A DNA stretch of 64,000 bases from Halalkalibacillus sediminis (GTDB lineage Bacteria > Bacillota > Bacilli > Bacillales > Alkalibacillaceae): assembly GCF_002844535.1 (NCBI RefSeq), contig NZ_PJNH01000001.1:806001-870000 (forward strand), given 5' to 3'. The position numbers were made by a program, and so were the translations under genes. Positions within the stretch are counted from its first letter, which is position 1, and each line of letters begins with the position of its first letter. The notes beneath the pieces are model-generated. The model was not told the DNA's origin. It did no database searches and saw nothing but the letters and a program-made list of their open reading frames with translations. Shown here piece by piece: positions 50,321 through 54,539 of this stretch.

Positions 50321-51226
50321 TTAATACTCATCATCTCGGTATCCGTATTCTCTTAACTGATGCATGTGGTTACGCCAATCCTTCTGCACTTTTACCCACA
50401 GTTCTAGGTACACTTTTGAACCAAGCATTCTCTCAATTTCTTGTCTCGCTTCGGTTCCTAGTTGCTTAAGCATCTTACCTTGCTTACCAATGATGATCCC
50501 TTTTTGAGATTTCCTTTCAACTATTATTGTTGCCTGTACATCAATAATCTCAGAATCATCTCTACCTTTTATTGAATCAATCACGACAGCAATCGAGTGG
50601 GGTATTTCTTCACGTGTGTGATGTAAAACCCTCTCTCTGATAAATTCACTTATTATAAACCTTTCCGGATGGTCTGTGATCTGATCTTCTGGATAAAATT
50701 GCGGTCCCTCGGGTAAATATCCTCTCATCACATCTACAAGGCGATCAACATTGTTTCCATTCAATGCGGATATAGGTACAATTTCTTCAAAATCGATTTG
50801 TTCTTTATAAAATTCAATCATAGGTAGCAATTGATCCGGATGTACCTCATCAATTTTGTTTATGACGAGTATGACTGGATTCGAAACACTTTTTAAGCGT
50901 TCTATGATAAATTCATCACCTTTTCCATACCCTTCTTGAGCATTGATCATGAATAAGATCAAGTCAACTTCATTAAGTGTATTCATTGAGGACTTGACCA
51001 TAAAGTCGCCTAATTTGTGTTTGGGTTTATGGATACCTGGTGTATCAATAAAGATCATTTGCGATTGTTCCTCGGTCAATACACCTTGAATTTTATTTCT
51101 CGTAGTCTGAGGTTTATCACTCATTATAGCTATCTTTTGTCCAATCACTCGATTCATGAATGTAGACTTACCTACATTCGGTCGACCGATGATGGAAATG
51201 AATCCTGAACGGTAAGACTCTGTCAT
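50321..51226 (-). CDS. era: GTPase Era
   Basis: Essential GTPase that binds the 3' end of 16S rRNA during 30S assembly. 301 residues: G1 GRPNVGKST (about 15-23), G3 DTPG, G4 NKID and a C-terminal KH domain with [18 protein letters not shown] precedes ATG. It follows dgkA with 48 bases between; the cdd gene usually found there is missing. Confidence 0.96.
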
Positions 51227-51274: not shown

Positions 51275-51634
51275 TTAAGATATTAAATTGATTACTTTAG
51301 GTGCGAATATTATTGTTCCTACGATCGCTGCAAAAACGGCTGCGATCAATACAGATGCTGCACTAATATCTTTTATTCTTTTGGCATCTTCATGCTGGCC
51401 AGGAAACAATTGATTTGTTACTAACTCAATAGCTGTGTTCATTAGTTCAAACGCCAGCACAAAGCCGATCGCGATCAAAACAAAGAGCCACTCAAATACA
51501 GACAGTTGAAAGTATAAACCTGCAAAAAGAGTAACGAACATAACAACAAAATGAATTTTCATATTATATTCTGTCTGTAATGCAGTGAAAATACCTCTTA
51601 TTGCATAGTTAAAACCGACACGGTTACGTTTCAT
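51275..51634 (-). CDS. dgkA: Undecaprenol/diacylglycerol kinase
   Basis: 119-residue membrane kinase with three helices; in Gram-positives the substrate is mainly undecaprenol. Motif ELMNTAIE (about 68-75) and the following DAKRIKDISAASV are typical. Overlaps the end of ybeY by 11 bases, so it is part of the phoH-pgpH-ybeY-dgkA chain. Confidence 0.93.
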   Translation of the reverse strand: MKRNRVGFNYAIRGIFTALQTEYNMKIHFVVMFVTLFAGLYFQLSVFEWLFVLIAIGFVLAFELMNTAIELVTNQLFPGQHEDAKRIKDISAASVLIAAVFAAIVGTIIFAPKVINLIS

Positions 51635-52097
51635 CGCGTTTCAACCCATATTCACTCAATACTTCTTCTTGTCGACTGAACATCTTTTGTTCATCACTAT
51701 CTGACATATGATCGTACCCAAGTAAATGTAAAAGTCCATGAACAGCTAAAAAGCCTAACTCTCGTTCAAAAGAATGATTATATTCCTCTGACTGAGCCAC
51801 GCAACGATCTAGTGATACAATAATATCCCCTAAATGGACAGGTAGATCCTCACCTGTTATTTCAAGTTCTTCTTCTCCAATCTCTTGCATCGCAAAAGAT
51901 ATAACATCTGTAGGTTTATCTTTGTCTCGATATTTTTTGTTGATTTCTTGAATCTCTTCATCCGTCACAAATGTTACAGATAGCTCAGCTTCTTCTGAAA
52001 CATTTTCCTTTTTTCCAGCAAACTGAAGTAATTCAAGTAGTTTATCTAATTGCTCGCTCGTTAGACGTTCAGTTTCATCGTTAAAATCAATGATCAA
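51624..52097 (-). CDS. ybeY: Endoribonuclease YbeY (rRNA maturation)
   Basis: 157 residues; metal-binding HGLLHLLGYDH (about 118-128) is the signature of this 16S rRNA-processing family. The start is TTG 52097, preceded by GGAGGCGC, directly after the pgpH stop. An ATG at the corresponding place is absent. Confidence 0.94.
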   Translation of the reverse strand: MIIDFNDETERLTSEQLDKLLELLQFAGKKENVSEEAELSVTFVTDEEIQEINKKYRDKDKPTDVISFAMQEIGEEELEITGEDLPVHLGDIIVSLDRCVAQSEEYNHSFERELGFLAVHGLLHLLGYDHMSDSDEQKMFSRQEEVLSEYGLKRDET

Positions 52098-53561
52098 TTA
52101 ATGCGCCTCCTTCACTTTTTCTCTTGTAGCTTCCTCTGGATATTCAATTCGTGCGTGAAAGATTCCCTTCAACATGTCACATATATCTATTTCAATTTCC
52201 CTCAAATCCTTTAATGTTAAACTGCTCTCGTCCAATTGCCCATCAGTAAGTCGGTCATGAATGATGGAGCGTACAATCTTCTGTATTTCTTCATTTGTAG
52301 GGTTCTCTTTGGAACGAACGGCCGCCTCTACCGAATCACAAATATTTATAATAGCAGCTTCCCTTGATTGAGGAACGGGACCGGTATATCGAAATGAACT
52401 TTCTATTACAGAAGGGTCCGTCTCCTTCGCTTTATAATAGAAAAACTTCAGAAGCGTTGTTCCGTGATGTTGTTCTGCTATATCAATGATTTCTTTAGGT
52501 ATATCATAATTTCTCAAAATTTTGGCTCCATCGCTTGGATGGGATAATATAATTTCTGCACTGTCCTCGGGACTCATATCATCATGGGGATTTTTCATGT
52601 TGTGTTGGTTTTCAATGAAATATTTCGGCCGAAATGATTTACCTACATCATGGTAATAAGAAGCTACTCGCGCAAGCAGTCCGTTAGCACCGATTGCCAT
52701 ACTCGCAGATTCACTCAGGTTTGCCACCATCACACTGTGGTGATAAGTGCCCGGAGCTTCCACAAGTATTTTGCGTAATAATGGATGATTGGGGTTCGAC
52801 AAGTTGAGTAATTTAGTTTCAGTTAATGTATTAAAACTTGCTTCTATAATAGGTATTACTCCAAAAATCAAAATCGCTGAGATGAAAATGGATGATATTG
52901 AAAGCAGAGCTGCAACCACCCAGTTCATTGACCATAAATCGTTAATAGCATTTACCTGTTGTAAAATTACAAATCCTAAATGTACTGTAATTAATACAGC
53001 TGATGTCTTTATTAAAGAGGCGCGATCTTTGATTGATTGGTATAAATATACCGCCGTCCATTGAGATATTAAAAAGAATATAAATGCTGAAAACATTAAA
53101 AAGTCACTTGTAGCTCCATTCATGTAAATTGCACCGAAAAGAGCCATAAAAACAGACGCAACCAAAGCATACCTTTCATTTACGAGTTCTTTCATCAAAA
53201 CTGCATAAGCAGCAACAGGTATGAGATAAAACAGGCTATTGACAGATGGCCCGAAAACATTAATCAGAACCATAAATATCAATAAACTTGTCCCAACCAA
53301 AGCACTTGAAAACGCCATTTGTTTTGTCCAGCCTGACATATGATCATGTTCTAACCGTAAGACCAAAATCCCAACTACTGCCAAAAAAGAACCCAGAAAC
53401 AACACATGTAACGGAATGGTGACTCTAAAATATTCAACAATTAACGCCAATAAAAAAATAAGGGGTACAACAACAGCTGACAGAAGTACCCCATAACTTT
53501 TTATTCCTTTGCTATAATCTTTAGCTTCAGATGAAGTTATATTCTTTTCCACCTCATACAT
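52098..53561 (-). CDS. pgpH: PgpH-type c-di-AMP phosphodiesterase lacking its extracellular domain
   Basis: 487 residues: seven or eight membrane helices (about 25-265) followed by a cytoplasmic HD domain with TYHHSVMVANL, YYHDVGK (His-Asp pair, about 330) and EQHHGT. PgpH/YqfF proteins hydrolyse cyclic di-AMP. Homologues of about 700 residues begin with a helix and a ~230-residue extracellular HDED domain; here that part is missing and the gene begins almost at the membrane core. The preceding phoH gene ends 25 bases upstream, so there is no room for the missing part and no sign of a frameshift. Start ATG 53561; in-frame TTG 53573 is an alternative. Confidence 0.87.
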   Translation of the reverse strand: MYEVEKNITSSEAKDYSKGIKSYGVLLSAVVVPLIFLLALIVEYFRVTIPLHVLFLGSFLAVVGILVLRLEHDHMSGWTKQMAFSSALVGTSLLIFMVLINVFGPSVNSLFYLIPVAAYAVLMKELVNERYALVASVFMALFGAIYMNGATSDFLMFSAFIFFLISQWTAVYLYQSIKDRASLIKTSAVLITVHLGFVILQQVNAINDLWSMNWVVAALLSISSIFISAILIFGVIPIIEASFNTLTETKLLNLSNPNHPLLRKILVEAPGTYHHSVMVANLSESASMAIGANGLLARVASYYHDVGKSFRPKYFIENQHNMKNPHDDMSPEDSAEIILSHPSDGAKILRNYDIPKEIIDIAEQHHGTTLLKFFYYKAKETDPSVIESSFRYTGPVPQSREAAIINICDSVEAAVRSKENPTNEEIQKIVRSIIHDRLTDGQLDESSLTLKDLREIEIDICDMLKGIFHARIEYPEEATREKVKEAH

Positions 53562-53585
53562 TGAAAGCACCAACTTTTTTAATAA

Positions 53586-54539
53586 CTATTTTTCATAGGC
53601 ATCAATGATTTTCTGAACCAATGGGTGTCGAACAACATCTGTACCTGTTAAATAGTTGAAAGAGATTCCTTTGACACCTTTCAGTCTATCCTCAACTGCT
53701 TTCAGCCCTGATGTCATACCTTTTGGAAGGTCAATTTGAGTAATATCTCCAGTAATGGTCATTTTAGAACCAAAACCTAAACGAGTTAAAAACATTTTCA
53801 TTTGCTCGGGGGTAGTATTTTGTGCTTCGTCCAATATGACAAAAGCATCGTCAAGTGTACGGCCTCGCATATAGGCTAAAGGAGCAATTTCGATTGTACC
53901 CCGTTCCATCAACCTTGCAGTATGTTCAGTACCTATAACATCATGGAGAGCATCATATAATGGACGTAAGTATGGATCCACTTTCTCTTTCAAGTCTCCA
54001 GGTAAGAAGCCTAGGCTCTCTCCTGCTTCTACCGCAGGACGCGTTAGGACAAGTCGTTTGACATCTCCGTTACGTAACGCCTTTGCTGCCATAACAACCG
54101 CAAGGTAAGTTTTTCCTGTACCAGCTGGACCGATACCGAATACTAGATCATTTGCCTTCATGGCAGCTACGTATTCTCTTTGACCTAAAGTTTTTACACG
54201 AATAGGTTTACCTAGCTGATTTTTTGTAATTTCGTCTTCAAAAAGAGTTTCAAACTGTTCGAGTTTATCTAATCGAGCTAATTCCAAACCATATATGATA
54301 TCTCGTTCAGTTACAGTAATCCCCTTTTTAATGATTTTCAACACTTGTTGGATAAGGGCCTCGACAGTTTCAACGTCTTTTTGTTCACCTTCTATTTTTA
54401 ATTGTCCACCACGCGTTATGATTTTAACAGGTAGAAATTCTTCAATTTGTTTAATATTACGATCATTTGTTCCAAATAAATTCAATGTATCTTCATGATC
54501 TTCTAAGTGTAGATCGATGATTTGTTTTCCCTCTTGCAT
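53586..54539 (-). CDS. phoH: PhoH-like protein
   Basis: 317 residues; ATPase related to superfamily I helicases with Walker A GPAGTGKTYL (about 131-140) and Walker B FVILDEAQN. An N-terminal KH-like region precedes it. RNA-related functions are suggested by the constant linkage to ybeY. Second gene of the yqfC-yqfD-phoH-pgpH-ybeY-dgkA chain. GGAG precedes ATG. Confidence 0.93.
   Translation of the reverse strand: MQEGKQIIDLHLEDHEDTLNLFGTNDRNIKQIEEFLPVKIITRGGQLKIEGEQKDVETVEALIQQVLKIIKKGITVTERDIIYGLELARLDKLEQFETLFEDEITKNQLGKPIRVKTLGQREYVAAMKANDLVFGIGPAGTGKTYLAVVMAAKALRNGDVKRLVLTRPAVEAGESLGFLPGDLKEKVDPYLRPLYDALHDVIGTEHTARLMERGTIEIAPLAYMRGRTLDDAFVILDEAQNTTPEQMKMFLTRLGFGSKMTITGDITQIDLPKGMTSGLKAVEDRLKGVKGISFNYLTGTDVVRHPLVQKIIDAYEK

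Follow-up and report, generated by a model that had tools for sequence, protein, structure and literature searches.

Has the pgpH gene of Halalkalibacillus sediminis really lost the extracellular domain of its enzyme, and if so, is the loss peculiar to this organism, and what kind of enzyme does it leave? The gene lies on the minus strand at 52098..53561 of the window (the whole 64,000-nucleotide stretch of DNA that we analysed), and its 487 codons, starting from an ATG at 53561, lie within a stop-to-stop frame of 495 residues that has no internal stop. A sequence-only reading had described a PgpH homologue of 487 residues that retains the membrane core and HD domain and has lost the extracellular HDED domain cleanly, with no frameshift, and the domain content agrees. 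Pfam places PF07698 (7TM-7TMR_HD) at residues 61-255 and PF01966 (HD) at residues 280-421 of the 495-residue frame (in both cases 8 less when counted from the ATG), PF07698 scoring 63.4 bits against a curated cut-off of 29.4 (68.7 bits in the genome search), and gives no match to PF07697 (HDED) up to an E value of 1. The neighbours are phoH upstream (53586..54539, minus strand) and ybeY downstream (51624..52097, minus strand), with dgkA (51275-51634) and era (50321-51226) beyond ybeY; phoH and ybeY flank pgpH in the relatives examined as well, and the window protein is the PgpH orthologue at its normal locus.

We asked how widely this form occurs in the 22 genomes of the family, and found the short form in 12 genomes from seven genera, the long form in 8, and no pgpH in 2. 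PF07698 is accordingly present in 20 of the 22, and PF07697 in 8, exactly those with the long form. Long frames are 705-736 aa, save one of 634 aa (G015) with a frameshift in the HD domain. Short frames occur in 11 of the short-form genomes, with no stop inside the gene (in G021 the copy ends at the contig end, at 437 aa), and the twelfth, G013, carries one in-frame TGA. Both the G015 frameshift and the G013 TGA, the latter in a genome that is 82% complete, may be sequencing errors. The recurrence of the short form, together with the phoH stop 24 nt before the pgpH ATG, which leaves no room for an HDED domain, reduces to practically nothing the chance that a frameshift, a misassembly or a wrong start produced it.

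The domain is not encoded elsewhere either. In the window's own genome (2.86 Mb, 99% complete) PF07698 is matched once and PF07697 not at all, and PF07697 likewise goes unmatched in every one of the 14 family genomes that do not carry the long form. A split sensor, with HDED made as a separate protein, had been raised as a way in which the sequence-only reading could fail, and on these searches it is very improbable.

In a tree of 47 rows and 425 core and HD columns (with G013 left out and Allobacillus salarius in effect included twice, G017 being almost identical to it), the 12 short rows group together as a clade supported at 100/100, so that a single change accounts for the short form. Its sister group consists of the family's 8 long rows (91/81), and short and long family rows together are supported at 99/97. 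No inner branch printed for this tree is longer than the stem leading to the short rows, at 0.95 changes per column. Since all short rows form one clade, one ancestral loss of HDED is the simplest reading. The domain is really absent, as had been claimed, and with the short form in 12 of the 20 pgpH-bearing family genomes its absence is a feature of the lineage and not a private loss.

The 5' side of the gene also has some features of its own. A GTTGGTG-like stretch (at most one change) lies shortly 5' of the ATG in 6 of the 10 complete short-form rows, the window's included. Across 10 short-form loci the gap between phoH and pgpH is 10-27 nt, with one of 119 nt, and a simple hairpin plus T-run scan finds no terminator-like hairpin in it; the same scan finds one in the long forms, in 5 of 8 family rows and 15 of 18 named loci. 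The short clade may have acquired co-transcription of pgpH with phoH.

Beyond the family, the long form prevails. Among 80 named loci, taken as those most similar to the short form among the matches listed and not as a random sample, 77 are long, with frames of 683-772 aa that agree with the length of about 700 residues previously given for homologues; the three short ones come from Alkalibacillus (two) and Allobacillus (one). Halobacillus, Pontibacillus, Aquibacillus, Virgibacillus, Lentibacillus and Gracilibacillus are halophilic genera, and their loci carry the long form; because many relatives from halophilic genera keep HDED, the earlier suggestion that its loss suits an osmotically stressed halophile is unsupported.

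An order sample of 397 genomes has PF07698 in 359 and PF07697 over the cut-off in 352, and includes seven short-form genomes; as 359 minus 7 is 352, HDED loss in this sample is limited to the short clade, and no PgpH-bearing genome outside that clade lacks the domain. The rows of the two Pfam entries were compared by eye, and outside the window's family their gaps differ only at G272 and G292, which have a weak PF07697 match and no PF07698 match. Two shorter proteins of the order sample, of 602 aa (G103) and 586 aa (G053), both have an HDED match. In the phylum sample, PF07698 is present in 186 of 199 genomes, and among the matches listed four rows fall below 550 aa, none of which makes a good case for a convergent short form, though rare ones may exist among the weakest matches, which lie outside that listing. 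HDED is matched in two of them, G436, with an in-frame stop inside the HD domain, and G543, whose HD domain is cut by the contig end; in G483 the contig ends before the core and the remaining part has no HDED match, and G526, which starts at base 42 of its contig, is likewise truncated by a contig end. HDED belongs to the usual architecture of these proteins, but PF07698 does not require it: the control genome, Thermotoga maritima, has a PF07698 match and no PF07697 match, and may hold another 7TM-HD protein in which HDED is missing or diverged.

What remains of the enzyme is well preserved on its catalytic side. The HD phosphodiesterase domain (residues 255-476; 52134..52799, minus strand) matches the Lmo1466 HD structure 4s1b over its whole length (E 5.1e-84), and the structural comparison gives Z 31.3 over 212 residues, with an rmsd of 1.5 and an identity of 57-58%. 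H275, H304, D305, H341, H365, H366 and D409 are invariant across 10 short forms. The metal ligands of Lmo1466 are thereby retained; among these ligands, D648 is described in the literature (PMC12072042). Positions at least 90% conserved in 130 long forms number 22 in the core and 112 in HD, and 11 short rows retain 103-108 of the 112. By these measures the HD domain is intact in the short form.

At the other end, the protein had been thought to begin almost at the first core helix, which is inexact: the counterpart of the long forms' first core helix, as the alignment places it, is preceded by about 48 residues that include one extra hydrophobic helix. In the window protein, a 23-residue tail leads into an N-terminal transmembrane helix identified by a hydropathy scan (residues 24-42; 53436..53492, minus strand). 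A short loop (residues 43-48; 53418..53435, minus strand) stands at the HDED site of long forms, where the extracellular domain has about 230 residues, and is followed by the first core helix, H0 (residues 49-71; 53349..53417, minus strand), both being placed by alignment and hydropathy. The scan recovers these first two helices in 10/10 short forms, separated by a loop of 5-12 residues with 0-1 K/R. The N-terminal tails carry 2-6 K/R, and their net charge is positive in 8/10; the window protein's tail, with as many acidic as basic residues, is neutral, as is that of one other short form. PgpH is usually described as having eight helices (PMC12072042). The scan recovers all eight in 2 short forms out of 10; six others show seven, and the remaining two show six and five. 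In the two rows with all eight, K/R counts largely alternate as a topology with both ends inside predicts.

AlphaFold models the short PgpH with a mean pLDDT of 81, the core and HD being more confident than the N-terminal part, where residues 31-72 form one long helix (pLDDT about 58-66) and so give no confirmation of an N-terminal hairpin. In the long-form model (pLDDT 84.5) a helix at 2-42 is followed by the HDED region, and this in turn by the membrane core and then HD. Homology between the first helix of short forms and the N-terminal helix of long forms cannot be demonstrated. Because AlphaFold is less confident at the N-terminal region, we infer rather than observe the topology, which is best described as the usual eight helices with HDED swapped for a short outer loop.

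The membrane core itself has changed along with HDED. Short rows (n = 11) keep 11-13 of the 22 conserved core positions, compared with 16-22 in the 130 long forms; 11 long forms whose HD scores are equally low (at most 106) keep 18-21. When the three positions in H0 are left out as the least securely aligned, short forms keep 11-13 of 19 against a long-form minimum of 14 and median of 19, so that the signature is still shifted, yet the ranges nearly touch. Changes in short forms (L091 numbering) fall at the junction of HDED and core (P283, G286, L287), near the predicted outer face (the polar S334 and N381, together with K331, a position occupied by K in 108 of the 130 long forms and by E in 19) and in mid-helix (G420, N427). 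On the inner side R413, G467, P470 and E473 are kept. This pattern has exceptions: P348 and A350 are retained although they lie in the outer half, and the inner-side positions I416 and S480 undergo conservative changes. The residues that changed along with HDED point to the part of the core that may contact this domain.

The six-helix membrane core (residues 78-247; 52821..53330, minus strand) is predicted to have a fold like that of ECF S-components, with residues 78-244 of the short model matching TmRibU at Z 12.6 over 161/171 residues (rmsd 3.2) and residues 311-477 of the long model at Z 13.5 over 160/171 residues (rmsd 3.1), values to be read against the Z of about 13 that unrelated helical models may reach. 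Foldseek likewise pairs S-components with the PgpH core at weak E values (0.1-0.7) and probabilities of 0.97-1.00. Further RibU, FolT, BioY and ThiT entries match the core in one or both structural lists, and the HDED domain is barely covered by the fold searches. That the core-confined rows are S-components in both lists speaks against a chance match, and in its predicted fold the core of PgpH looks similar to an ECF S-component. The AXXXA motif of S-component helix 1, which is associated with docking to the ECF module (PMC11109136), is not conserved in helix 1 among 11 short or 130 long forms; the window protein has A-x-x-x-A at 83-87, with A at 87 in 1 of the 11 short rows. The S-component fold with one preceding helix has been found in 5TMR kinases and MreD in a 2024 paper (PMC11109136), and the main-text passages of that paper on which we draw make no mention of PgpH, 7TM, HD domain, phosphohydrolase or hydrolase.

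With such a fold, the core may itself be a binding site for a small molecule. It is therefore conceivable that the short PgpH is a working sensor whose core has been re-tuned to another ligand, to pH or to ions, a reading to which we give a minor share of our belief. The same fold acts as a receptor in 5TMR kinases (PMC11109136), and four core residues, F160, L183, S187 and H194, are fixed in short rows and occur in none of the 7 long family rows used for comparison (G015 left out). The ligand is putative, however, the Z values stand close to what helical bundles may give by chance, the Foldseek E values are weak, and K331, S334 and N381 at the outer face have become variable. Five HD positions (S285, L339, N406, K418 and E425) are equally newly fixed, so the core is not richer in such sites (4 of 169 columns, against 5 of 224 in HD). 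This equal density, together with the near-touching ranges without H0, weakens the reading. In its most ambitious version, PgpH as a whole would be a receptor-phosphodiesterase built on an S-component-like core with HDED as its outer cap; the short clade would have lost cap and outer polar face together, a pocket would have gained the fixed S187, H194 and F160, and c-di-AMP breakdown would have been rewired or freed from outside control. We regard this model, which builds on predicted folds, as speculative and rather doubtful.

A strong match to GdpP, the other membrane c-di-AMP phosphodiesterase, is present in 22/22 family genomes (in G021 over two frames), and so is a CdaA-type PF02457 cyclase (frames of 245-296 aa, and 690 aa in G001), which answers the earlier proposal to check for both. 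A second cyclase of DisA size (356-374 aa), told apart from CdaA by frame length and match strength only, occurs in 4 of the 8 genomes with the long form; the other 14 family genomes, whether short-form or without pgpH, have none.

With GdpP at hand, the short PgpH might be a remnant on its way out: GdpP would suffice, constraint would be relaxed, and HDED would go first and the whole gene later. Decay comes into consideration because pgpH is absent in two genomes, G013 has its stop, and divergence is raised. The two genomes, G012 and G020 in the Alkalibacillus genus group, have phoH followed directly by ybeY at near-identical clean junctions, from which it follows that pgpH itself was lost there, most simply in a single event. 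The core-to-HD divergence ratio is slightly up in short forms (2.26, against 2.03 in the long family forms and 1.88 in other long forms), which would suggest mild relaxation without collapse. The long stem branch also counts in favour of decay. Against decay stand the HD signature, retained in all 11 rows examined, the invariant columns of the short forms (120/224 in HD and 28/169 in the core) and the genes free of internal stops in 11 of the 12 short-form genomes. We consider a remnant unlikely, more so than a re-tuned sensor. Outside the family, G036 likewise has pgpH cleanly absent between phoH and ybeY.

We favour a functional c-di-AMP phosphodiesterase from which HDED disappeared in a single event, in the last ancestor shared by its clade, an account that we hold to be probable on the sequence evidence. 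This small clade comprises Alkalibacillus, Allobacillus, the genus of the window and four further genera (Bacillaceae). In its ancestor, the extracellular stretch that joins the N-terminal helix to H0 would have shrunk to an outer loop of about 5-12 residues, the eight-helix topology with both ends inside being retained. The cytosolic HD domain would convert c-di-AMP to pApA alongside GdpP, offsetting the single CdaA-type cyclase, and most likely does so still, without the HDED signal. As the HDED input and part of the conserved core signature are gone, the enzyme probably no longer perceives the original outside signal; its activity would be constitutive, or else be governed by the membrane core or by cytosolic effectors. 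Inhibition by (p)ppGpp, reported for PgpH in several Firmicutes (PMC10243994), could still be present in the short form.

The loss of the domain is real and ancestral, and the enzyme that it affects is a conserved one. A 2023 review describes the function of the PgpH extracellular domain as unknown and its sensing role as wanting work (PMC10243994), and in the open-licence literature we found no report of a PgpH lacking HDED and none of an S-component fold for PgpH. The short clade is a natural experiment on the role of this unexplained outer domain: a clade with a single loss and sister genera with the long form provide matched natural proteins for testing what HDED senses.

Among known systems, the closest are PgpH of Listeria monocytogenes (Lmo1466) and YqfF of Bacillus subtilis, 7TMR-HD proteins that share the HD domain, the membrane core and the phoH and ybeY neighbours with the short form, which differs from them in having no extracellular HDED domain and in its altered conserved core positions. 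GdpP, by comparison, has a DHH-DHHA1 catalytic domain, unlike the HD domain of PgpH (PMC10243994, PMC5575661). The 5TMR-LYT kinases BtsS and YpdA have a six-helix S-component-like fold after one helix (PMC11109136), an arrangement similar to that predicted for PgpH, and the ECF S-components RibU, ThiT, FolT and BioY have the six-helix fold that the predicted PgpH core resembles. Unlike either group, PgpH carries a further N-terminal helix, with HDED in the long forms, and no conserved AXXXA in helix 1, and its output is an HD phosphodiesterase instead of a kinase or a transport module.
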